This document shows, piece by piece, positions 4,291 through 24,195 of a DNA stretch of 64,000 nucleotides. The notes beneath the pieces are model-generated. The model was given only the letters and a program-made list of their open reading frames with translations, had not been told where the DNA came from and searched no databases. The DNA lies in contig NZ_JACHOT010000002.1 in the NCBI RefSeq assembly GCF_014200015.1, positions 248,001 through 312,000 on the forward strand, written 5' to 3'. The first letter of the stretch is position 1. Every line of letters begins with the position of its first letter. Origin of the DNA: Aminobacter niigataensis. Lineage in GTDB: Bacteria > Pseudomonadota > Alphaproteobacteria > Rhizobiales > Rhizobiaceae. A program made the position numbers and the translations under genes.

Positions 4291-4995
4291 TCAGGCCGAC
4301 ACTGCCGTCGTGGTCTCGTCGACCTTCGGGCGGTTGAGCGGCAATTGCGTGCCGGTGACCACGAAATAGGCGTTCTCGGCGACGTTGGTGACATGGTCGC
4401 CGATGCGCTCGAGGTTCTTGGCGCAGAACAGCAGATGCGTGCATGCGGTGATGTTGCGCGGATCTTCCATCATGTAGGTCAGGAGCTCGCGGAACACAGC
4501 CGTGTACTGGATGTCGATCTTCTGGTCGTCGTTGCGCAGTTCCTTCAGGCCTTCGGCCTGGCGCGCGACATAGAGATCGACCACGCCGCGGACCTGGCCG
4601 AGCACCAGCTGCGCCATCGCGTCGATGGAGTGCGAAAGGTTGCGCGGCGTCGGCGACTGGCCGACGGCACCGACACGCTTGGCGATGTTCTTGGCCAGGT
4701 CGCCGATGCGCTCGAGATCGCCGGCCATGCGGATGGCGCCGACCACGGCGCGCAAATCCTGCGCCATCGGCTGGCGCTTGGCGATCAGCGTGATCGCGCT
4801 GTTGTCGAGCTCGCGCTGCTTGGCGTCCATGATCGTGTCGTCGGCGACGACGTTCTGCGCCAGCGCCTGGTCGGACGAAAGCAGTGCGCGGATCGCACCT
4901 GCCACCATCGCGCCGGCCAGGTCGCCCATGTCGCGGATAACCTGGTCGACGTGTTTGAGTTCTTCGTCGAAGGACCGGACTGTGTGCTCGCCCAT
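4291..4995 (-). CDS. phoU: Phosphate transport regulator PhoU
   Basis: A 234-residue all-helical protein made of two PhoU repeats (about residues 15-105 and 120-205), each a three-helix bundle with acidic metal-binding clusters such as RMAGDLERIGDLAKNI and CAKNLERIGDHVTNVAE. PhoU sits at the inner face of the Pst transporter and restrains PhoR/PhoB signalling when phosphate is plentiful. It lies between pstB and phoB in the same direction with gaps of 40 to 98 bases, consistent with one operon. The last 15 residues are specific to this protein and look disordered. Confidence 0.95.
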   Translation of the reverse strand: MGEHTVRSFDEELKHVDQVIRDMGDLAGAMVAGAIRALLSSDQALAQNVVADDTIMDAKQRELDNSAITLIAKRQPMAQDLRAVVGAIRMAGDLERIGDLAKNIAKRVGAVGQSPTPRNLSHSIDAMAQLVLGQVRGVVDLYVARQAEGLKELRNDDQKIDIQYTAVFRELLTYMMEDPRNITACTHLLFCAKNLERIGDHVTNVAENAYFVVTGTQLPLNRPKVDETTTAVSA

Positions 4996-5035
4996 GGTGT
5001 GTTCCTCGTCTGATGCTGGTCGGAGCCGATATCGC

Positions 5036-5857
5036 TCAGCCGAAACGGCCGGTGATGTAGTCCTGCGTCCGCTTGTCGTCGGGGTTGGTGAACATCTTGT
5101 CGGTCGGGCCTTCCTCGACCAGATAGCCGAGATGGAACATCGCCGTGCGCTGCGACACGCGCGCCGCCTGCTGCATCGAGTGCGTCACGATGACGATGGT
5201 GTAGTTCTCGCGCAGCTCGTCGATCAACTCTTCGACCTTGGCGGTGGCGATCGGGTCGAGCGCCGAGCACGGCTCGTCCATCAGGATCACCTCGGGCGCA
5301 ACCGCGATGGCGCGCGCGATGCACAGGCGCTGCTGCTGGCCGCCCGACAGGCCGGTGCCAGGCTCGTTGAGACGGTCCTTGGCTTCGTTCCACAGCGCTG
5401 CCTTCTGCAGGCTCTTCTCGACGATCTCGTCAAGCTCGGCCTTGTTCTTGGCGAGGCCGTGGATGCGCGGGCCGTAGGCGACGTTCTCGTAGATCGACTT
5501 GGGGAACGGGTTCGGCTTCTGGAACACCATGCCGACACGGGCACGCAACTCGACGACGTCGATCTTGGGATCGTAGATGTCTTCGTTGTCGAGCGTGATC
5601 TTGCCGCCGACACGGGCGCTGTCGATGGTGTCGTTCATGCGGTTGAGGCAGCGCAGAAAAGTCGACTTGCCGCAGCCCGAAGGGCCGATCAGCGCCGTCA
5701 CCTGGTTCTGGCGGACATCGAGATTGACCCCGAACAGCGCCTGCTTGTCGCCATAGTGCACGGTGACCTGGTCGCCACGCATCTTGATGGGTTCATTGGG
5801 TCTGTTCATCTCGGCATTCACCGCGTCTTCGAGGGATTTCTCGGTCATGATGTTCAT
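5036..5857 (-). CDS. pstB: Phosphate ABC transporter ATP-binding protein PstB
   Basis: A 273-residue ABC ATPase. Walker A is GPSGCGKST (residues 58-66), the signature is [14 protein letters not shown], Walker B is [15 protein letters not shown] and the switch histidine is in [11 protein letters not shown]. The PstB-specific DxRM-like stretch [15 protein letters not shown] is present. It energises phosphate import through PstA and PstC at the inner membrane. ATG 5857 (MNIMTEK) is chosen over 5878 because AAGGAG lies nine bases upstream. A start at 5878 would have no clear ribosome site. It follows pstA closely in the same operon. Confidence 0.96.
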
Positions 5858-5881: not shown

Positions 5882-7198
5882 CTACCAGCGGCGCTCGAAG
5901 CGGCGGCGCAGGACGATGGCGACGATGTTCATGGCCATGAGGAAGATCAGAAGGATGATGATGGCGCCCGACATGCGCTCGACGAAGGCGCGCTCGGCCT
6001 CGTTCGCCCACATGTAGATCTGCACCGGCAAGGCCGTCGCCGGGTCGAAAGGCGTCTTGGGATAATCGGCGACGAACGCGACCATGCCGATCAGAAGCAG
6101 CGGCGCCGTCTCGCCGAGCGCACGCGCCAGGCCAATGATCGTGCCGGTCAGGATGCCGGGAGCGGCCAGCGGCAGGATGTGCTGGAACACCATCTGCATT
6201 TTCGACGCGCCGAGACCAAGCGCTGCCGAGCGGATCGACGGCGGCACCGCGGCGAGCGCGGCACGCGTTGCGATGATGATGGTCGGCAGCGTCATCAGCG
6301 TCAGCACGAGTCCGCCGACGAACGAGGCCGAGCGCGGCAGGCCGAGGAAATTGATGAACACCGCCAGGCCGAGCAGGCCAAAGACGATCGACGGCACGGC
6401 GGCGAGGTTGTTGATGTTGACCTCGATCAGGTCGGTGAAGCGGCTCTTCTTGGCGAATTCCTCGAGATAGATCGAGGCGGCGACACCGATCGGCAATGCC
6501 AGCAAAAGCACGATCACCATCATGTAGATCGAGCCGATCAGGGCGACGCCGACGCCCGAGGTCTCGGGCCGGCTCGACGCACCATAGCTGAACAGGCCGG
6601 TGTTGAAGTGCTCGGCCATCACGCCTTCGGCCTTGAGCTTGTTCATCCACTCGACCTGCTGGTCAGACACCTTGCGGCGGCTTTCCGGCACGTTGAGGTC
6701 GATCTGGCCCTTGTAGGCCGAGTCGAGATTGGCGGCCGCAAGGATGTCCACGTCCCGCGTCGTGCCGATGACCGACGGATCGGCCGCAACGATGGCCCTG
6801 AGCTGGACGCGCGAACCGTCCGACAGGAAGCCCTTGAGCTTGCGCACGGTGGCGCGGTCGCTCGGATCGATGCCGAGTTTTTCGATCAGCGCGGCCTCGG
6901 CGAGCTTGGGATAGTTCGCCGTGACCAGCACGTTCGGATCGGTCGCCCGCTTGTTGGACGGGTCGATGATCTTTTCGTCGAAATGGATCGGCAGCGTCAC
7001 CGTCGTCTGCCAGAAGGCGGTGTAGCCCTTGGAGACGATCGAGGTCAGCATGACCCCAAGGAACGCCAGGCCGACCGCAATCGCCAGCACGCCATAGAGG
7101 CGGAAGCGGCGTTCGGCGGCGTAGCGTTTCTTGATGCCGATGTCGCGGCGCGGACGAGCCGCGGACGAGGCAAGCGTGTCGAGCGAAATATCGGTCAT
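5882..7198 (-). CDS. pstA: Phosphate ABC transporter permease PstA
   Basis: A 438-residue inner-membrane permease. One span lies at about residues 35-60, followed by an unusually long loop to about residue 225. Five spans of the core permease then carry the EAA-type loop GLGASKMQMVFQHILPLAAPG. This is much longer than the E. coli protein (about 296 residues), mainly through that loop. The extended form fits the long-PstA subfamily (with a DUF3333-type N-terminus) found in proteobacteria. Its ATG overlaps the pstC stop by four bases, so translation is coupled. The role is the phosphate channel together with PstC. Confidence 0.93.
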   Translation of the reverse strand: MTDISLDTLASSAARPRRDIGIKKRYAAERRFRLYGVLAIAVGLAFLGVMLTSIVSKGYTAFWQTTVTLPIHFDEKIIDPSNKRATDPNVLVTANYPKLAEAALIEKLGIDPSDRATVRKLKGFLSDGSRVQLRAIVAADPSVIGTTRDVDILAAANLDSAYKGQIDLNVPESRRKVSDQQVEWMNKLKAEGVMAEHFNTGLFSYGASSRPETSGVGVALIGSIYMMVIVLLLALPIGVAASIYLEEFAKKSRFTDLIEVNINNLAAVPSIVFGLLGLAVFINFLGLPRSASFVGGLVLTLMTLPTIIIATRAALAAVPPSIRSAALGLGASKMQMVFQHILPLAAPGILTGTIIGLARALGETAPLLLIGMVAFVADYPKTPFDPATALPVQIYMWANEAERAFVERMSGAIIILLIFLMAMNIVAIVLRRRFERRW

Positions 7199-8661
7199 TC
7201 GTACTGCTCCCGGTACTTCCGGACGATGTAAAGCGCGACGATGTTCATCACCAGCGTCAGCGCGAAAAGCGTGATGCCGAGCGCGAAAGCGACCAGCGTC
7301 TGCGGCGTGTTGAACTCGAGGTCGCCGGTCAGCTGGTTGACGATCTTGACGGTGATGGTGGTCATCGCCTCGAACGGGTTGAGCGTCAGGTTGGCGGCAA
7401 CGCCGGCCGCCAGCACCACGATCATCGTTTCGCCGATGGCGCGCGAAGCGGTCAGCAGGATGGCACCGACGATGCCCGGCAGCGCGGCTGGGAGGATGAC
7501 GCGCTTGATCGTTTCCGAGCGCGTGGCGCCGAGTCCGAGCGAGCCGTCGCGCATGGCGCGCGGCACGGCGGTGATGATGTCGTCGGAGAGCGAGGAGACG
7601 ACCGGGATCAGCATCACGCCCATCACCAGGCCGGCGGTCAGGATCGACTGCGCCTGGATGAACGGTGTGCCGCCGGCAAGTGCCGCGCTGATGTCGCGCA
7701 GGAAGGGTCCGAGCGTGACGAGCGCGAAGATACCGTAGACGATGGTCGGAATGCCGGCGAGCAGTTCGAGCGCCGGCTTGACCACCGCGCGCACCTTGGG
7801 CGCCGCATATTCCGACATGTAGACCGCCGACATCAGGCCGATCGGCACCGCGACCAACAGCGCCACGAAGGCGATATAGAGCGTGCCGGCCAGCAGCGGG
7901 ATCAGGCCGAACTGGCCTTCCGCGCCACCGGAGCCGGCGGCCGCGAAACGCGGGTCCCACACCGTGCCGAAGAAGAAGTTGGTCAGCGGGATCTTTTCGA
8001 AGAACGCGATCGTCTGGAACAGCATCGACAGCACGATGCCGATGGTCGTCAGGATGGCCAGCGTCGAGGCGCCGAGCAGGCTCCACAGCATCACCTTCTC
8101 GACATGGTTGCGTGCCCTGCCGCGCGGGGTGATGCGGCTGAGGCCGTAGACCGATCCGAGCAGGGCAAGCCCGATCGAAACGACCGCGACGATCATGTCG
8201 AGACGATCGGAGACGCGGTTGGCGTCTGCGGCAATCGGGATCATGTAGTCCTGGGTATCGGGCGCCAGCGCCACGCCCTTTGCGGCGAGCATCGGCCGCA
8301 GTTCGGCAAAAGTCTGGGGCAATGCGGCAAGCGTCTGGCTGTCGAGCCGGCGCATGCCGCTGGCAAGGCTCTTGACCAGACCCGCCGCGAGATCTTCATG
8401 CGCCACCGTGCCGTCGGCGATATCGGCAGGCAGGGCCGCATGGATATGGCTGTTCAGATAGGCGCTCGCGCCGATATCCCAGGCCGCGAGAAACAGAACG
8501 GCCGGAATGACGCCCGTGAGGAACGCCCACCAGCCATGATAATGCGCCCGCGAGTGCGGCTTGACCGTTCCGTCGTCCTGCGCGCGCGCCCTTTGCCGGC
8601 CGATCACGAATGCGATCAGCCCGATTGCGAGTACGATGGCGAAGACGAGCAGGAAAGACAT
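7195..8661 (-). CDS. pstC: Phosphate ABC transporter permease PstC
   Basis: A 488-residue permease with two N-terminal spans (residues 1-22 and 45-70), a predicted periplasmic stretch to about residue 155, and the core permease in the second half. The EAA loop is GLGATRSETIKRVILPAALPG. It is longer than the E. coli protein (about 319 residues), in parallel with the extended PstA here, so the two probably pair through their extra domains. It follows pstS after a 102-base gap containing a strong hairpin, and overlaps pstA by four bases. Confidence 0.93.
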   Translation of the reverse strand: MSFLLVFAIVLAIGLIAFVIGRQRARAQDDGTVKPHSRAHYHGWWAFLTGVIPAVLFLAAWDIGASAYLNSHIHAALPADIADGTVAHEDLAAGLVKSLASGMRRLDSQTLAALPQTFAELRPMLAAKGVALAPDTQDYMIPIAADANRVSDRLDMIVAVVSIGLALLGSVYGLSRITPRGRARNHVEKVMLWSLLGASTLAILTTIGIVLSMLFQTIAFFEKIPLTNFFFGTVWDPRFAAAGSGGAEGQFGLIPLLAGTLYIAFVALLVAVPIGLMSAVYMSEYAAPKVRAVVKPALELLAGIPTIVYGIFALVTLGPFLRDISAALAGGTPFIQAQSILTAGLVMGVMLIPVVSSLSDDIITAVPRAMRDGSLGLGATRSETIKRVILPAALPGIVGAILLTASRAIGETMIVVLAAGVAANLTLNPFEAMTTITVKIVNQLTGDLEFNTPQTLVAFALGITLFALTLVMNIVALYIVRKYREQYE

Positions 8662-8763: not shown

Positions 8764-9801
8764 TTACATAGTCTTGCCGGCGGTGAACGCCTCGCGCTGG
8801 GCAGCGCGTTCCGCGTCCGGAGCGGCAACCAGGCCGTAGTCGGCGAGCGGGCTTTCCGGGCCGACCATCTGGTCGTCGAGGAAGAACTCGACATATTCCT
8901 TCAGGCCCGGAATGACGCCGAGATGCGCCTTCTTGACGTAGAAGAACAGCGGACGCGAAACCGGATACTCGCCTGCGGCGATGGTTTCGACCGAAGGCGT
9001 GATGCCGCCGACGGTGGCGACCTTCAGCTTGTCGGCGTTGTTTTCGTAGAAGGCCAGGCCGAACACGCCGACGCCGGTCTTGTTCGAGTCGATGCGAGCC
9101 AGCGTCTCGGAGTAGTCGCCGTCGATGTCGACAGCCTTGCCGTCCTTGCGGACTGCCTTGCACGAAGCGTCAGCGGCCTTGTCGTCTAGGCCGGCCGCCT
9201 TGGCAGCTTCGACGCCGCCGAGTGCCTTGCAGCCGGCGATCAGCAGCTTCTCTTCGAAGACTTCGCGGGTGCCGTGCTTTTCGCCAGGAATGTAGGCGGC
9301 AATGTCCCAGTCGGGCAGGTTCGGGTTGACCTGGTTCCACTTGGTGTTGGGGTTTTCGACCAGCTTGCCGTCGACGACGATCTTGGCGGCCAGCGCCTTG
9401 TAGATGTCTTCCGAGGTCAGAGCCCAGTCCGGGCCGTTGACGTCCGTCGCAAAGACGATGCCGTCATAGCCGATCTTGACTTCCTGGATGTCCTTGACGC
9501 CGGCGTCGATGCAGGACTGGACTTCGTCCTTCTTGATCGCGCGCGACGAGTTGGCGATGTCGATGGTGTTCTCGCCGACGCCCTTGCAGAATTCCTTGAT
9601 GCCGGCGCCCGAACCGCCGGACTCGACCACCGGGGTCTTGAAGTTCGAGAAGGTTTCGCCGAACTGTTCGGCAACGATCTTGGCATAGGGCAGAACGGTC
9701 GAGGAACCGGCAACCTGAACCTGGTCGCGGGCCGAGGCGTAGCCTGCCGAGGCGACAATCGCGAAGGCAGCCGCCGACGCAGTGAGAAGAGCTTTTTTCA
9801 T
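8764..9801 (-). CDS. pstS: Periplasmic phosphate-binding protein PstS
   Basis: A 345-residue secreted binding protein. Signal peptide MKKALLTASAAAFAIVASAG is cleaved near YASARD. Phosphate-contacting motifs are AGSSTVLPYAK, GGSGAGIKEFC and the Ser/Arg-rich IANSSRAIKKDE. It captures phosphate in the periplasm for PstCA. The start at 9801 gives a normal signal peptide; an in-frame start further upstream would add 20 unlikely residues. It is the first gene of the operon and is preceded by a Pho box about 70 bases upstream. Confidence 0.95.
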   Translation of the reverse strand: MKKALLTASAAAFAIVASAGYASARDQVQVAGSSTVLPYAKIVAEQFGETFSNFKTPVVESGGSGAGIKEFCKGVGENTIDIANSSRAIKKDEVQSCIDAGVKDIQEVKIGYDGIVFATDVNGPDWALTSEDIYKALAAKIVVDGKLVENPNTKWNQVNPNLPDWDIAAYIPGEKHGTREVFEEKLLIAGCKALGGVEAAKAAGLDDKAADASCKAVRKDGKAVDIDGDYSETLARIDSNKTGVGVFGLAFYENNADKLKVATVGGITPSVETIAAGEYPVSRPLFFYVKKAHLGVIPGLKEYVEFFLDDQMVGPESPLADYGLVAAPDAERAAQREAFTAGKTM

Positions 9802-17146: not shown

Positions 17147-17548
17147 ATGGCCAAGACCGATTTCAAGTCCGTGGAAGAATACATCGCGGCGCAGCCGCAG
17201 ACCGTCCGACCTACCCTCGAACATGTGCGCAAGATCATCCGCGATGCCTTGCCTGGCGCCGAAGAAGTCATTTCCTACCAGATTCCCGCCTACAAGCTGC
17301 ACGGCGGCCGGGTGATCTACTTCTCCGGCTGGAAGGAGCACTTTTCGCTCTATCCGGTCACCGAAAACCTCGTCGCAACACTCGGAGACGAGGTCGCGCC
17401 TTATGTCGCCGGCAAGGGAACGCTGCGCTTTTCGCTGGCTAAACCGGTACCGGCGAAGCTGATCGAGCGGATCACCAGGCTCCGCGCCGAGGAGGAGGCC
17501 GACGCCATGAAGGCGAAAGCAGCGGCCAGGGCGAAGCGGCGCGGCTGA
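17147..17548 (+). CDS. DUF1801 (YdhG-like) protein
   Basis: 133 residues of the YdhG/DUF1801 fold, related to the frataxin-like bacterial iron chaperone group. Motifs are TLEHVRKIIRDALPGAEEVISY, YKLHGGRVIYFSGWKEH and KGTLRFSLAKPVP. Function in the family is poorly defined. CGGAGG stands five bases before the ATG. The C-terminal 20 residues are an Ala/Lys-rich tail. A second DUF1801 protein is encoded at 52248-52670. Confidence 0.8.
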   Translation: MAKTDFKSVEEYIAAQPQTVRPTLEHVRKIIRDALPGAEEVISYQIPAYKLHGGRVIYFSGWKEHFSLYPVTENLVATLGDEVAPYVAGKGTLRFSLAKPVPAKLIERITRLRAEEEADAMKAKAAARAKRRG

Positions 17549-18086: not shown

Positions 18087-18329
18087 ATGCGTACACCGGT
18101 TGCCAACCAGATCAGCAAGCGCAAGGCCGTGGCCGATGTGCTGAACCGGCAGAAGGTTTTCGTCAGTTCCAGGCGTTTCCGCGGCGACGGGCAACCCATC
18201 TCCCGCGTGCTCGTTTCCGGCCGCTATTACGATGTCAGCGACCAGTTGCTTGACATGCTGCGGCATGGCGCGACGCCGGGCGAGCTCGAACTGGAGCCCG
18301 CGTCCGACGACGCGGCCGGCCTGCAATAG
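18087..18329 (+). CDS. Small unknown protein, first gene of the repair operon
   Basis: 80 residues, basic N-terminal half (RTPVANQISKRKAVADVLNR) and acidic C-terminus. No domain is recognised. It ends five bases before the ligD start, so it is likely co-transcribed and perhaps translationally coupled. No strong ribosome site was seen before its ATG. The short gap to ligD and regular codon use support a real gene. It could also be an upstream leader frame. Confidence 0.5.
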   Translation: MRTPVANQISKRKAVADVLNRQKVFVSSRRFRGDGQPISRVLVSGRYYDVSDQLLDMLRHGATPGELELEPASDDAAGLQ

Positions 18330-18333
18330 GCGC

Positions 18334-20787
18334 ATGGCAGCAGAAAAGCTTCGCACCTACCGGCAGAAGCGCGATTTCTCCAGGACGCGGGAACCACCTG
18401 GCGCGTTGGCAGGCCACGATGGCAACCGCTTCGTCGTCCACAAGCACCATGCCACGGCCGATCACTACGACCTGCGCCTCGAACTGGGCGGTGTGCTGAA
18501 AAGCTGGGCCGTGCCGCGCGGCCCCTCGCTCAATCCCGCCGACAAGCGGCTTGCCGTCGAGACCGAGGACCACCCCATCGAATATATCGACTTCGAAGGC
18601 CTGATCCCCGAGGGGGAATATGGCGGCGGGCCGATGATCGTCTGGGACACCGGCGTCTGGGCGCCGATGGAGGATGCCGAAAAGGCGCTTGCCAAGGGCG
18701 CCTTCAAGTTCCGCCTGTCGGGCGAAAAGCTGAAGGGCGGCTGGATGCTGGCGCGGCTGAAGCCGAAGCCCGACGAGAACAAGCACAACTGGCTGCTGCT
18801 CAAGGAGCATGACCCCGCCGCCGACGAGAAACTCGATATCCTCCAGGCACGCCCCGAAAGCGTGAAGACCGGCCGGCTCATCGAGGAACTGGCCGGTCCG
18901 CCGAAAAAGCCGCCATCGAAGCCCGCCGACCTCAAGCCCGGTAAGCTTGCGGGTGCGGTGCGGGCACCGATGCCGGCGCGGATCGAACCGCAGCTGGCCA
19001 CAGCGGCGCCCAAGCCGCCGTCGGGCGAGGGTTGGCTTCACGAGATCAAGTTCGACGGCTATCGCACCATGGCCCATGTGGCGGATGGCGCCGCCAAGTT
19101 CATCACCCGCAGCGGCCTCGACTGGACCAAGCGCTATGGCGGCCTCGCCAAGGCCTTTGCCCCGCTACCATGCAGCGATGCCGTCATCGATGGCGAGATC
19201 GTCGTGCTCGACGACAAGGGCATCAGCCGGTTTGCGGCCTTGCAGGACGCGCTGGCCAGCGGGCATGACGAGCTCCTGGTTTTCTACGCCTTCGACCTTC
19301 TCCATCTCAATGGCTGGAATCTGACGGGCACGGAACTCAGCAAGCGCAAGGGCATGCTGGAGACGCTGCTTGCCGGCCATGTCGACGGCCGCTCGGCGCT
19401 GCAGCTCAGCGGACATGTCGAGGGCGACGGCCAGGCGCTGTATGACCAGGCGACCGAAATGGGGCTCGAGGGTGTGGTGTCCAAGCGGGCCTCGGCACAT
19501 TACACCTCCGGACGCTCGCACAGCTGGTCCAAGACCAAGGCGCTGGACAAGGGCGACTTCGTCATCGCCGGCTACACGACATCGCAGGCAGCCGAAGGGC
19601 TTGCGGCCCTCGCGCTCGGCGAATGGGTCGACGGCGAGTTGCAATATCGCGGCAAGGTCGGAACCGGCTTCGACGCTGAGACGTTGCAGTCATTGCTGCA
19701 CCGGCTGGAAGCCCTGCGGGAAGGTGCGGACAAGCTCGATGGTGCGCCGAAGGAGGTCATCCCAGTGCGTCCGGTACTGAACGCCCATATCCACTATGCC
19801 AACCGCACCACCGACAATGCGCTGCGGCACGCCGTGTTCAAGGGCCTGCGCGAGGCGGAGCTGACCGCGAGCGCCTCCGCGCCGCGCAAGCGGCTGATCT
19901 CGGATGCCGATCTCGCCGGCATTTCGATCACCAATCCGACGCGGCGGGTGCTCGGCAAGGCCGGGCCGACCAAGCTCGACGTCGCGGTTTATTACGCCGC
20001 CATCGGCGATTTCATGCTGCCCCACATTATGGGGCGGCCGGTATCGCTGTTCCGCTGTCCGAGCAGCCGGCCGCAGGACTGCTTCTTCCAGCGTCACGCC
20101 TTTTCAGGCATGCCACCGACGATCGCTTCGTTCGACACCAGGAATTCCGAGGGCGAGACCAAGAGCTACATTTCGGTCGAGGACGCCAAGGGCTATCTCG
20201 CGCTGGCGCAGTTCGGCGTCGTCGAGTTCCACGCCTGGGGGGCCCTTCGCAAGCATCTCGACAAGCCCGACCGTGTCGTCTTCGACCTCGACCCGGGCGA
20301 AGGCATCGGCTGGCGCGAGGTCGTGGAGGCCGCCGTTCACGTGCGCGGCGAGCTGGAAAAGCTCGGCCTCGTGCCTTTCGTCAAGACATCCGGCGGGCGC
20401 GGCATCCATGTCGTGGTGCCGACCACCGGCAAACTCGGCTGGAAGCCATTCCATCAGGCAAGCAGCGAAATCTCGTCGCTGATTGCTGCCACTGCTCCAG
20501 AGACTTTCACCACCGTCATGGGCAAGGACAACCGCAAGAAGCGCATTTTCATCGACTTCCACCGTAATGCGCGCAGTGCAACGGCGGCCGCGCCCTATTC
20601 TCTTCGGGCTCGCACCGGCATGCCTGCTTCGACACCTCTTGGCTGGAACGATCTCGAGTCCATCGACGCTCCGGAAGATTTGAACTATTCTTCGCTTCCC
20701 GGCCTCGTGGCCAGGTCAGGCGATCCCTGGGCGGACATCGGCGACCACGCCCGCGACCTGACGACTGCAATCAGTGCCAAACGTTAG
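18334..20787 (+). CDS. ligD: ATP-dependent DNA ligase LigD
   Basis: An 817-residue three-domain enzyme in the order phosphoesterase, ligase, polymerase. The phosphoesterase domain (residues 30-170) shows HKHHATADHYDLRLEL. The ligase domain (about 225-520) has the nucleotidyl-transfer Lys239 in HEIKFDGYR and motif IDGEIVVLD. The primase-like polymerase (about 545-805) has FDLDPGEG at about 650 and SGGRGIHVVVP. LigD trims, fills and seals double-strand breaks held by Ku. The ku gene follows after 30 bases. All catalytic motifs that I can read are intact. Confidence 0.95.
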   Translation: MAAEKLRTYRQKRDFSRTREPPGALAGHDGNRFVVHKHHATADHYDLRLELGGVLKSWAVPRGPSLNPADKRLAVETEDHPIEYIDFEGLIPEGEYGGGPMIVWDTGVWAPMEDAEKALAKGAFKFRLSGEKLKGGWMLARLKPKPDENKHNWLLLKEHDPAADEKLDILQARPESVKTGRLIEELAGPPKKPPSKPADLKPGKLAGAVRAPMPARIEPQLATAAPKPPSGEGWLHEIKFDGYRTMAHVADGAAKFITRSGLDWTKRYGGLAKAFAPLPCSDAVIDGEIVVLDDKGISRFAALQDALASGHDELLVFYAFDLLHLNGWNLTGTELSKRKGMLETLLAGHVDGRSALQLSGHVEGDGQALYDQATEMGLEGVVSKRASAHYTSGRSHSWSKTKALDKGDFVIAGYTTSQAAEGLAALALGEWVDGELQYRGKVGTGFDAETLQSLLHRLEALREGADKLDGAPKEVIPVRPVLNAHIHYANRTTDNALRHAVFKGLREAELTASASAPRKRLISDADLAGISITNPTRRVLGKAGPTKLDVAVYYAAIGDFMLPHIMGRPVSLFRCPSSRPQDCFFQRHAFSGMPPTIASFDTRNSEGETKSYISVEDAKGYLALAQFGVVEFHAWGALRKHLDKPDRVVFDLDPGEGIGWREVVEAAVHVRGELEKLGLVPFVKTSGGRGIHVVVPTTGKLGWKPFHQASSEISSLIAATAPETFTTVMGKDNRKKRIFIDFHRNARSATAAAPYSLRARTGMPASTPLGWNDLESIDAPEDLNYSSLPGLVARSGDPWADIGDHARDLTTAISAKR

Positions 20788-20817
20788 TCTGTTTATGGTT
20801 TCGCGTAGGAGACAAGC

Positions 20818-21690
20818 ATGGCCCCCAGGGCAAGTTGGAAGGGATATCTGAAGCTCAGCCTCGTCAGCTGCCCGGTGCGGCTGTACCCGGCGACGAGTTC
20901 CAGCGAGCGCATCAGCTTCAATCAGCTGCACAAGGACACCCACAACCGGATCAACATGAAGCCGGTCGATCCGGAGCTCGGCCTCGTCGAACGTGCCGAC
21001 CTGGTCAAGGGCTACGAATACGAAGACAAGAGATACGTCATCATCGACGAAGCCGACCTCGACAGCGTCAGGATCGAATCCAACCACACGATGAACATCG
21101 AAGCCTTTGTCGATGAGCATTCCGTCGACGTCATCTACCAGGACGCACCCTACTATCTTGCCCCCGACGGAGCGATGGCGGAGGAAACATTCGCCGTGTT
21201 GCGCGAGGCGCTGCACAAGTCCGGCAAGCTGGCGATCGCGCGGCTGGTGCTGTCGAGCCGCGAACGCGTGGTCACCATCGGCGCGCGCGACAAGGGCATG
21301 TTCGTCTGCACGCTGCGCAACCCGAGCGAGGTGCGCAGCACCGCCGAATATTTCAGCAACATCCCCGCCGGCAAGCCCGACCCCGAGATGCTCGAACTCG
21401 CCGAGGCGCTGATCAAGCAGAAACTGACGACCTTCGATCCGAAGAACTACGAAGACCGCTACGAGATCGCCTTGATGAACATGATCAAGGAAAAGCTGAA
21501 GGGTCACAAGCCGATCATCGCCGCCGCACCAGAGCGCGGCAATGTCATCAACCTGATGGATGCGCTGAAGGCGAGCCTCGGCCAGGCCAAGCCGCCGGCA
21601 AAGAGCAAGACAAAGGCCGAACCGGCCGAGAAGCCGGCGGCCAAGCTGACCGCGGTCGCGGGCGGCAAGCAGGCCAAGGGCAAGAAGTGA
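20818..21690 (+). CDS. ku: Non-homologous end-joining protein Ku
   Basis: 290 residues with the bacterial Ku core. Examples are RASWKGYLKLSLVSCPVRLYP at the start, FNQLHKDTHNRI, VERADLVKGYEYEDKRYVII and ARLVLSSRERVVTIGARDKG. It binds broken DNA ends as a homodimer ring and recruits LigD. The last 35 residues are Lys/Ala-rich, the usual DNA-contacting tail. AGGAGA lies before the ATG. The stop overlaps the GTG start of the next gene by four bases. Confidence 0.95.
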   Translation: MAPRASWKGYLKLSLVSCPVRLYPATSSSERISFNQLHKDTHNRINMKPVDPELGLVERADLVKGYEYEDKRYVIIDEADLDSVRIESNHTMNIEAFVDEHSVDVIYQDAPYYLAPDGAMAEETFAVLREALHKSGKLAIARLVLSSRERVVTIGARDKGMFVCTLRNPSEVRSTAEYFSNIPAGKPDPEMLELAEALIKQKLTTFDPKNYEDRYEIALMNMIKEKLKGHKPIIAAAPERGNVINLMDALKASLGQAKPPAKSKTKAEPAEKPAAKLTAVAGGKQAKGKK

Positions 21691-22769
21691 ACGAAGGCCG
21701 TATCTACGGACTGATCGGTGCGCTTGCAGCCTTCCCGCGCCGCCTCGCCGTCCGCGAGGTGGCGCGGCAGGGCGGCGAGCTACAGCATGGCGTGACGCGG
21801 CGCACCACCCATGTCGTCTTCGGGCGCACGCTCCTGCACAAATCGGACGAGGCAAGGCTGGAGGCCCGCTTCGACGCCGCATCAGCTTCGGGCCGTCCCG
21901 TCCTCAGCGAAAACGGCTTCCTGCGCGCGCTCGGCCTGCTGGACCAGGTCGAGGGTGCCGGCATGACGCGGCAATCCCTGCTCGACCAGGCCAAGCTTGC
22001 GCCGCGTGAACTGGACCTTCTGTCGCTCTTCGACGCCTTCGAGCGCGACGCCGAACCCTATGCCTTTCGCGACCTGATCCTGGCCAGGAAATATGCCGCG
22101 CTGCTCGCCGGCGGTTCAACCTGGAGCGCCATCGCCCGCTCGGTTCGCCGCTCCGGCGCAGTGGCGCAGCTGAGCGCGCTCTCGCTCCAGGCCGACGGCA
22201 AGGACACGATCTATGCCCGCCTCGGCGCCGATCTGGCAGAACTCGACGGGCAACGCCTGCTGCCGCTCGACCGCACCGGCGACGCCGAGCTGGAGGATCT
22301 GTTCGCGCTGGCCGAAGACGCGGAAGAAGACGGGCGCTACGACGAGGCCGCCGCACTTTATCGGCGCTGCCTTGCCGCCGACCCGGGCGACAGCGTCGCC
22401 GCCTTCAACCGCGCCAACTGCCTGCGTGCGGCCGGCATGGGCAGCGAGGCGATGCAGGGCTACATGCGGGCGATCAAGCTCGACCCGAAGTTCGTCGAGG
22501 CCTGGTTCAACCTTGCCGGCCTGTTCGCCAGCGAAGGCAAGGCCCGCACCGCACGCCGCCATCTCGAAAAGGCGATCGCGCTCGATCCGGCCTATGCCGA
22601 TGCCATGTTCAACCTCGCCAATCTTGCCTACGAGGCCGGCGATCTCGCCGAGGCGCGGCGCTGGTGGGAGGCCTATCTCCGGCTCGACGCGACCTCGGAA
22701 TGGGCAAAGACCGCGGCCAAGGGCATCCAATATGCCGATCTGCATTTGAAAGAACGGACGGCAAGCTAG
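21687..22769 (+). CDS. BRCT-like/TPR protein of the end-joining operon
   Basis: A 360-residue protein starting with GTG inside the ku stop (GTGA overlap). Residues 1-85 look like a BRCT module (YGLIGALAAFPRRLAVREVA, then QHGVTRRTTHVVFGRTLL). Residues 90-200 include FRDLILARKYAALLAGGSTW, which resembles a MerR-type or similar helix-turn-helix segment. Residues about 210-350 contain tandem tetratricopeptide repeats (ALYRRCLAADPGDSVAAFNR, AIKLDPKFVEAWFNLAGLF, AIALDPAYADAMFNLANLA). A break-signalling scaffold is a reasonable inference. I know of no assigned function. Confidence 0.8.
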   Translation: MNEGRIYGLIGALAAFPRRLAVREVARQGGELQHGVTRRTTHVVFGRTLLHKSDEARLEARFDAASASGRPVLSENGFLRALGLLDQVEGAGMTRQSLLDQAKLAPRELDLLSLFDAFERDAEPYAFRDLILARKYAALLAGGSTWSAIARSVRRSGAVAQLSALSLQADGKDTIYARLGADLAELDGQRLLPLDRTGDAELEDLFALAEDAEEDGRYDEAAALYRRCLAADPGDSVAAFNRANCLRAAGMGSEAMQGYMRAIKLDPKFVEAWFNLAGLFASEGKARTARRHLEKAIALDPAYADAMFNLANLAYEAGDLAEARRWWEAYLRLDATSEWAKTAAKGIQYADLHLKERTAS

Positions 22770-23408
22770 ATGGCAGTGCATTTCCTGTTCGACGGCCCCG
22801 AAAACGCAGCCGTCACCATCCTGCTCGCCCATGGCGCCGGCGCGCCCATGGATTCGGCCTCGATGACGGCAACGGCCGCAGCACTTGCCGCAGCCGGCCT
22901 GCGCGTCGCCCGCTTCGAATTCGGCTATATGGCGGCGCGCCGGACGGGCAGCCGCAAGCCGCCGCCGCGCGCGGAAACGCTCAATCCGGAATTCAGGACC
23001 GCCATCGATGAACTCGGCGCCAAGGGGAAGCTGATCATCGGCGGCAAATCGATGGGCGGGCGCGTTGCCAGCATGATCGCCGACGAGATGCTCGATGCCG
23101 GCAAGATCGCCGGGCTGCTCTGCCTCGGCTATCCCTTTCACCCACCGGCCAAGCCGACGCAGCTCCGCACCAAACACCTCGCCGGCCTCCGGACGCCGGC
23201 GCTGATCGTCCAGGGCACGCGCGATGAGTTCGGCACCCGCGACGAGGTCGCCGGATATGAGCTGTCCGACCGGATCGAGATCCTGTGGCTCGAGGATGGC
23301 GACCACGATCTCAAGCCGCGCAAGAGCATCTCGGGCTTTTCGGCCGCCGACCACCTGAAGACGACAGGCGAAACCGTCGCGGCCTGGGCGGCCCGGCTCG
23401 GCGCCTAG
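22770..23408 (+). CDS. Alpha/beta hydrolase of the TEX30/KANL3 type
   Basis: 212 residues with an alpha/beta hydrolase fold. The oxyanion region is LLAHGAGAPMDS, the nucleophile elbow is GGKSMGGR (Ser94), the acid is in QGTRDEFG and the catalytic His is in EDGDHDLKPRKS. It matches the small dienelactone-hydrolase-like group to which mammalian TEX30 belongs; the substrate is unknown. The ATG directly abuts the TAG of the BRCT/TPR gene, so it belongs to the repair operon. Why a hydrolase sits here is unclear. Confidence 0.8.
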   Translation: MAVHFLFDGPENAAVTILLAHGAGAPMDSASMTATAAALAAAGLRVARFEFGYMAARRTGSRKPPPRAETLNPEFRTAIDELGAKGKLIIGGKSMGGRVASMIADEMLDAGKIAGLLCLGYPFHPPAKPTQLRTKHLAGLRTPALIVQGTRDEFGTRDEVAGYELSDRIEILWLEDGDHDLKPRKSISGFSAADHLKTTGETVAAWAARLGA

Positions 23409-23424
23409 AACCCACGGCGGCCCG

Positions 23425-24195
23425 ATGAAGATCGCCACCTTCAACATCAACAACGTCAACCGCCGGCTCGAAAACCTGCTGGCGTGGCTGGGCGAAGCGA
23501 AGCCCGACGTCGTCTGCCTGCAGGAATTGAAGGCGACCGACAGCCAGTTTCCGCGCGCGGCACTGGAAGCGGCCGGCTATGGCGCCGTATGGCGCGGCCA
23601 GTCGACCTGGAACGGCGTCGCGATCCTCGCCCGCGATGCCGAACCGGTTGTCACGCGGTGGGAATTGCCGGGCGATCCCGGCGACACGCAGAGCCGCTAC
23701 ATCGAGGCGGCCGTCGGCGGCGTGCTCGTCGCCTCGCTCTACGCCCCCAACGGCAACCCGCAGCCAGGCCCGAAATTCGACTACAAGCTTGCCTGGCACG
23801 AGCGGCTGAACGCGCATGCGGCGACCTTGCTGGCCGCCGGCGTCCCGGTCGTACTCGCCGGCGACTACAACGTCGCCCCTGATACGCTCGACGTCTATGC
23901 GACCAGTTCCTACGACGACAACGCGCTCGTCCAGCCCGAAAGCCGCACAGCCTTCCGGCAGTTGCTCGACCAGGGCTGGACCGATGCGGTGCGCAAGGCT
24001 TTCCCCGGCGAGGCGGTCTACACCTTCTGGGATTACCGCCGGAACAGATGGCCGCGCAACGCGGGCCTCCGGCTCGACCACCTGCTGCTCAGCAAGCCGA
24101 TGGCAAAACGCCTCAAGACAGTCGGCATCGACCGCGACATCCGCGGCCGCGACGACGCCAGCGACCACGCGCCTCTGTGGATGGAGATGAAGTAG
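23425..24195 (+). CDS. xthA: Exodeoxyribonuclease III family nuclease
   Basis: 256 residues of the exonuclease III/AP endonuclease fold. Metal-binding Glu34 is in CLQELKA, the active-site pair is in LAGDYNVAP, and the closing motif is SDHAPLWMEMK with Asp-His. DNA-contact segment FWDYRRNRWPRNAGLRLDHL is typical. It cleaves at abasic sites and resects 3' ends. It follows the hydrolase by 16 bases as the last gene of the repair operon, fitting a role in end cleaning before ligation. Confidence 0.92.
   Translation: MKIATFNINNVNRRLENLLAWLGEAKPDVVCLQELKATDSQFPRAALEAAGYGAVWRGQSTWNGVAILARDAEPVVTRWELPGDPGDTQSRYIEAAVGGVLVASLYAPNGNPQPGPKFDYKLAWHERLNAHAATLLAAGVPVVLAGDYNVAPDTLDVYATSSYDDNALVQPESRTAFRQLLDQGWTDAVRKAFPGEAVYTFWDYRRNRWPRNAGLRLDHLLLSKPMAKRLKTVGIDRDIRGRDDASDHAPLWMEMK

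Follow-up and report, generated by a model that had tools for sequence, protein, structure and literature searches.

Accounts of bacterial end joining usually name two proteins, Ku and LigD, a pair that is regarded as a minimal model and also finds use in editing. Does this description suffice where ku is tied to a further gene? The question is raised by a locus of Aminobacter niigataensis (assembly GCF_014200015.1, contig NZ_JACHOT010000002.1), lying in a stretch of 64,000 nucleotides (positions 248,001 to 312,000) to which we refer in full as the window. Its ku gene (20818..21690, plus strand), the product of which matches the Ku models PF02735 (150 bits) and TIGR02772 (282 bits) and is the single Ku match in its own genome, is followed on the same strand by a gene (21687..22769) that starts with GTG, overlaps the ku stop by 4 bases and codes for a protein with BRCT and TPR parts. 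Judging from gene arrangement and protein sequence, this BRCT/TPR gene probably provides a third dedicated component in one branch of non-homologous end joining (NHEJ): an adaptor that would be made together with Ku and would act on it.

An earlier note on this DNA had placed the BRCT/TPR gene in one operon with ligD and ku. Instead of occurring mostly without these genes in related genomes, it sits behind ku nearly everywhere in the samples that we searched. With residues 1-202 of the BRCT/TPR protein as the query, 247 genomes of the family (Rhizobiaceae) yielded 30 matches, of which that in G149 is marginal (E 4.9e-4), and ku is found directly upstream in 29 of the 30, spread over 16 genera; the marginal match, the only one that departs from this pattern, was set aside since no operon gene lies near it. 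Ku proteins of the window type (at least 77% identity) are present in exactly these 29 adaptor-bearing family genomes, and the next Ku follows at no more than 47% identity. A draw of 121 genomes from the order gave four adaptor matches, and the one outside the family (G071) is likewise located behind ku. The class sample of 337 genomes gave 14: the window itself, ten with ku directly upstream, and the three weakest (L084-L086), each with an internal stop, at which no Ku was detected within the approximately 3 kb fetched. Among adaptor loci in named genomes, ku is upstream in eight out of eight; Wenxinia marina possesses the order ligD-ku-adaptor-hydrolase-xth, and the nearest named relative, Aminobacter aganoensis, has a BRCT/TPR protein that is 93% identical to that of the window. 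The gene order anticipated by the earlier note is thus kept in 16 genera, with the small open reading frame (ORF) upstream of ligD, ORF80, present only in part of the relatives. This conservation rules out a chance order, which we rejected because the arrangement recurs in family, order and class genomes alike. We also rejected the possibility that a general TPR protein adjoins ku by accident, given that the full-length matches of the N-terminal profile sit behind ku. In a phylum sample, profile matches were obtained from 305 of 349 genomes; outside the family, nearly all of the matches listed concern the BRCT part alone, within ORFs of LigA size. Six of ten weak-match loci examined (L116-L125) read as LigA C-termini, and three of these six, when scanned, were LigA. 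In the A. niigataensis genome, a second match is placed at the end of an ORF of 728 aa, by eye a candidate LigA, and no relative was found in viral contigs.

The two genes are also closely spaced. In each of 59 deduplicated loci (64 were taken in; one without Ku and four duplicates were removed), the nearest possible adaptor start lies no more than 59 bases from the ku stop. The start overlaps the stop in 43 of them, by 4 bases in 31 (two with CTG) and by 1 base in 12, with CTG being allowed in start calling (8/59). Choosing the nearest start favors overlaps, given that any TGA stop with A, G or T before it creates a start codon; hence, the evidence is carried by the short distance found in 59 out of 59 loci and not by the overlaps.

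A match to the middle domain of the adaptor led us beyond the Alphaproteobacteria, to a betaproteobacterial genome with the order ku, a gene for a helix-turn-helix (HTH)-TPR protein without BRCT domain, and ligD. This protein of 265 aa matches MerR_1 at the Pfam cut-off together with several TPR models. Its relatives on plasmids were found in 33 records, all Burkholderiales by name, and in 11 of the 12 regions read, ku lies directly upstream of the HTH-TPR gene. The plasmid search as a whole returned 58 records, of which 32 have at least 89% cover, one has 82% (L229) and 25 have 64% or less (only H147 of the latter was examined; it contains the same fragment as H53). The coordinates of the Ku and HTH-TPR searches place ku just upstream of the HTH-TPR gene in every one of the 32 records in the top group (cover of 89% or more). 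CP084287 carries two HTH-TPR copies, both behind ku; in CP086300, ku spans the start of the circular record, and its nearness was computed from the coordinates. The position of LigD is far less stable: in the 11 Ku-HTH-TPR regions its gene lies on either side of the pair or on the opposite strand, and three of these regions (L218, L223, L228) showed no LigD match within approximately 4 kb. These data on LigD were obtained by tblastn, as the gene tables of PLSDB are incomplete. Since LigD moves or has no match nearby, Ku is the constant partner of the adaptor. Collectively, the adaptor is near-obligately linked to ku in Alpha- and Betaproteobacteria and is inherited together with Ku.

This shared inheritance can be read from the trees of both proteins, which we compared for the 59 deduplicated loci minus L071. 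The distances in the Ku and adaptor trees correlate with a Mantel rho of 0.95 (58 loci) and of 0.68 in the family subset of 33 loci, values that were reached by none of 999 shuffles, and 29 of 55 splits are common to both trees (0.17 on average after shuffling). As neighboring genes are expected to share their history, this agreement reveals an old unit and not a contact between its products. The linkage and the matching inheritance do bear, however, on the idea of hitchhiking, in which the adaptor would have nothing to do with end joining and would share the ku transcript only for the sake of stress-regulated expression. It is common for operons to contain unrelated genes; yet the adaptor gene stays with ku, and not with ligD, in Alpha- and Betaproteobacteria that differ in their neighboring genes, and its inheritance matches that of Ku. 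We therefore regard hitchhiking as highly improbable.

A candidate point of contact with the adaptor lies in the Ku tail. In the window, a KPPAKS motif directly follows the LMDALKASL helix of Ku. Its general form, KP[PA]AxS directly after an LMxAL helix, recurs in 41 of 45 coupled alphaproteobacterial Ku proteins (33/33 from the family, 8/12 from the order and class; the Ku tail of L083 is off-frame in this count). It is found at this position in none of 33 uncoupled Ku proteins, a set that comprises 30 top scorers of the family (L041-L070), not chosen at random, plus L155, L230 and L231. The motif may be a candidate docking site, or it may be a clade mark.

The adaptor itself is modular, consisting of a BRCT domain (residues ~6-81), a MerR-like HTH domain with a beta hairpin (~95-184) and a TPR part (~197-333). 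Its AlphaFold model has a predicted local distance difference test (pLDDT) score of 89.4 for the whole chain and of 92.2 for residues 1-200. Assignment of the BRCT domain relies on profile and fold: the Pfam BRCT model stays below threshold with the window protein alone (E 0.027), and the family profile recovers from the PDB the BRCT domains of RFC1 (E 1.2e-6) and LigA (E 3.4e-6). The predicted fold of residues 6-81 possesses BRCT topology; its best match in the PDB, and the only one with an E-value of 0.001 or lower, is the RFC1 BRCT domain (E 5.7e-4), and a weak match is to Pol mu in an NHEJ complex (E 0.019). In the model, residues 95-184 form a bundle resembling an HTH, plus a beta hairpin. 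By sequence, this middle domain found no convincing relative in the PDB; MerR_1 is detectable in two of 12 alphaproteobacterial middle domains (E of 1 or lower; best 0.0012), with that of the window giving no match, and in L208, a betaproteobacterial relative, it scores 21.6 bits, which is at the Pfam cut-off. The tandem TPR repeats are recognized directly (TPR_2 68.9 bits, cut-off 27), and the best fold matches of this part include consensus TPR structures; it also resembles the TPRs of O-GlcNAc transferase. A third architecture is encoded at L083 (G585, 1499-2101), where the match passes from BRCT straight to TPR with no HTH match in between. TPR is hence the part common to every architecture seen.

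Several observations weigh against an adaptor that acts on Ku. Proteins of the Ku family are encoded in 156 of the 247 Rhizobiaceae genomes, and 127 of these 156 lack the adaptor (the genome with the marginal match, G149, being counted among them). On the betaproteobacterial plasmids, the twelfth region read (L226) contains a short HTH-TPR fragment and no Ku, the HTH-TPR copy with 82% cover (L229) has only a Ku remnant approximately 1 kb upstream, and L230 and L231 carry ku without the adaptor. The tail motif occurs elsewhere in the tail of three of the 33 uncoupled Ku proteins and in none of the 12 coupled betaproteobacterial ones; it follows the Ku clade and may be a mark of that clade only. 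The predicted template modeling (pTM) score of 0.52 for the whole chain leaves the relative placement of the domains in the AlphaFold model unfixed, and the MerR-like HTH could point to gene regulation.

This last point is the starting point of the main rival explanation, according to which the protein regulates the NHEJ operon: its HTH would sit on the operon promoter, BRCT and TPR would sense damage or a partner, and the protein would set the amount of Ku and LigD without taking part in joining. Sharing a transcript with its targets is common for a regulator, one homologue is annotated as a MerR family transcriptional regulator, and the MerR_1 hits in L208 and in two of the 12 alphaproteobacterial middle domains fit such a function. 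The same survey cuts the other way, as these two hits are the only ones among the 12, the window protein gives none, and L083 has no HTH match between BRCT and TPR at all. Moreover, the gene is located behind ku rather than upstream of the operon or divergent from it, and it keeps this position even in regions with ligD located elsewhere. BRCT domains of LigA, RFC1 and XRCC1 make DNA and protein contacts, a role that also speaks for direct participation rather than for regulation. On balance, we consider a regulator unlikely, and a Ku adaptor remains the reading that we prefer.

What, then, of the other genes of the cluster? The earlier note had described six genes in a row, and coordinates as well as Pfam and NCBIfam domains bear this out; from ORF80 through ligD, ku, the BRCT/TPR gene and a hydrolase gene to xth, the intergenic gaps amount to 4, 30, −4, 0 and 16 bases. 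The gap between ORF80 and ligD is accordingly 4 bases and not the five that had been given. All lie on the plus strand. ORF80 (18087..18329) codes for an 80-aa protein of unknown family without a Pfam or NCBIfam match. The ATP-dependent DNA ligase LigD (18334..20787) comprises phosphoesterase, ligase and polymerase domains and scores above cut-off for TIGR02777, TIGR02779 and TIGR02778. Behind the adaptor gene follow that of a TEX30-type alpha/beta hydrolase of the Abhydrolase_11 family (22770..23408; PF20408, E 3e-70, 236 bits) and xth (23425..24195), which encodes a nuclease of the exonuclease III/apurinic-apyrimidinic (AP) endonuclease type (TIGR00633 236.6 bits, cut-off 99; TIGR00195 also above cut-off). 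Three xth copies above cut-off are present in the A. niigataensis genome, that of the cluster included.

The earlier note had seen in this arrangement a larger end-joining machine, in its fullest form a six-part one in which the hydrolase, the nuclease and ORF80 would join LigD, Ku and the scaffold in one complex. All 29 family operons have the hydrolase gene as the next operon gene downstream of the adaptor, as have G071 and Wenxinia, and the nuclease gene is present in 27 of 29 family operons and in Wenxinia (it is missing from G186, G342 and also from G071). The putative triad Ser94-Asp152-His179 of the hydrolase, to which we ascribe a presumed catalytic role, shows no change in any of 31 rows (two of which come from the window, and some of which are duplicates); the putative active-site residues of the nuclease, whose roles we likewise presume, are invariant in 25 rows, some of them duplicates. 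Against a single complex of six parts stands the fact that hydrolase homologues, found in 86 of 247 family genomes, occur in 57 of the 86 without the operon, and that eight stand-alone copies keep the same putative triad, with neither Ku nor the nuclease being found within approximately 1.5 kb of these eight loci. For the hydrolase, the occurrence away from ku and ligD that would have contradicted the earlier note is half borne out. In addition, neither hydrolase nor nuclease was found at 10 divergent alphaproteobacterial loci (over 7-8 kb downstream in nine, and over 1 kb to a contig end in one), and the betaproteobacterial Ku-HTH-TPR regions gave no tblastn match to the hydrolase or nuclease proteins of the window. 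With the ORF80 profile, 16 of 197 family genomes gave 18 matches; 10 of these lie at the operon, one is approximately 16 kb away (G183) and seven are unlinked, so that eight of the 18 are away from it. At the operon, ORF80 occupies three different positions: it precedes ligD, is inserted between the hydrolase and xth genes, or follows xth in convergent orientation. We therefore judge the six-part machine to be distinctly unlikely. Hydrolase and nuclease are a lineage-specific extension of the unit, and ORF80 is a loose associate of the operon. The idea of a larger machine thus has support for one added protein; for hydrolase and nuclease it is plausible within a single lineage, and for ORF80 it is weak. 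From linkage, we infer that the added cluster genes may have a role in end joining.

Some further features of these loci deserve mention. In the G183 operon (L098), approximately 0.8 kb of extra DNA (~6890-7700) separates adaptor and hydrolase genes, a distance that does not exceed ~0.25 kb in the other family operons. A DUF1801 protein is encoded upstream of the operon in the window (17147-17548), and a homologue is likewise found upstream in L033. No terminator-like site on the plus strand was detected inside the cluster, a weak negative as the scan finds eight sites against 6.6 in shuffles. The promoter scan of the locus was uninformative; an EcfG/RpoE2-type pattern has eight matches in the window against 4.9 expected, none of them upstream of the operon and one inside ligD. 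On the Burkholderiales plasmids, SOS response-associated peptidase genes are found within approximately 4 kb of the Ku-HTH-TPR pair in L224, L225 and L233; in L222 and L230, ku has DUF2188 genes in its vicinity. The Variovorax plasmid L218 carries, directly behind its HTH-TPR gene and on the other strand, a gene (4846-5805) annotated as a member of the endonuclease/exonuclease/phosphatase family; the product of this gene belongs to the xth superfamily, yet the Xth protein of the window gives no match to it.

How might an adaptor made with Ku operate? The TPR groove would hold a peptide of a partner, most simply the basic Ku tail, with its KPPAKS motif in alphaproteobacteria, and BRCT and HTH would make contact with LigD or with DNA ends; the adaptor would thereby bridge or order the ends prior to ligation. 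In one rhizobial lineage, this unit would have gained the hydrolase and the ExoIII-type nuclease, the latter of which could trim ends. More tentatively, and with chances that we place a little under even, we propose that many proteobacterial end-joining systems are not two-component ones: a BRCT adaptor would dock via its TPR part onto a motif in the Ku tail and organize the ends for LigD, a eukaryote-like build of separate origin, and the dominant Ku of Sinorhizobium meliloti would depend on it. If this is true, one branch of bacterial end joining resembles that of eukaryotes to some extent in having an adaptor layer, and differences between Ku-LigD pairs may be easier to understand in the light of a conserved third gene.

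Likeness to eukaryotes should be taken as an analogy only. Eukaryotic repair proteins such as Pol mu, ligase IV and XRCC1 offer the picture of a BRCT protein beside Ku and ligase; no homology is apparent beyond the BRCT fold, and we know of no counterpart of TPR and HTH in the eukaryotic BRCT proteins of NHEJ. The BRCT domains of LigA and RFC1 are the closest relatives by profile, that of RFC1 also by fold. In contrast to both, the BRCT domain of the window protein is fused to HTH and TPR, with no ligase or clamp-loader part, and in the profile alignment the Thr that follows BRCT strand 1, a residue with a phosphate-binding role, is replaced by Ile in the window family.

The ku/ligD locus on plasmid pSymB of S. 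meliloti has the same order ligD-ku-BRCT/TPR-hydrolase-xth as the window, although no ORF80 homologue was found there at E-values up to 1. The adaptor is present in 87 plasmid records (78 Sinorhizobium, eight Ensifer, one Pararhizobium), in two of which the gene order was read. In pSymB of strain ABS7 (L071), the matches to Ku (~7103-7936) and hydrolase (~9076-9710) are in pieces and absent from the gene table, due to either sequencing error or decay; both are unbroken in strain 1021 (L072). We take the ku gene of this pSymB locus to be sku2, accompanied by ligD2. Passages of one study give sku2 as the more relevant ku of S. meliloti (PMC10932983); these passages do not mention the adaptor, and no search aimed at the adaptor was made in that text. 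Within the portions of open papers searched, PMC1378119, PMC7719229 and PMC10932983 among them and the original S. meliloti Ku studies being outside this scope, we met no description of the adaptor; nor did a term search of PMC3616915 give a match to it, and searching papers for the locus tags of the S. meliloti operon genes yielded nothing useful. Location of the locus on S. meliloti pSymB makes the role of the adaptor directly testable in this bacterium.

In the passages of PMC1378119 on this subject, Ku and ligase are the only factors described for bacterial NHEJ. Like the two-component systems of mycobacteria, Bacillus and Pseudomonas, the window encodes Ku and a three-domain LigD in one cluster; unlike them, it has a BRCT-HTH-TPR gene coupled to ku and, further downstream as an addition of this lineage, a hydrolase gene and an extra xth.

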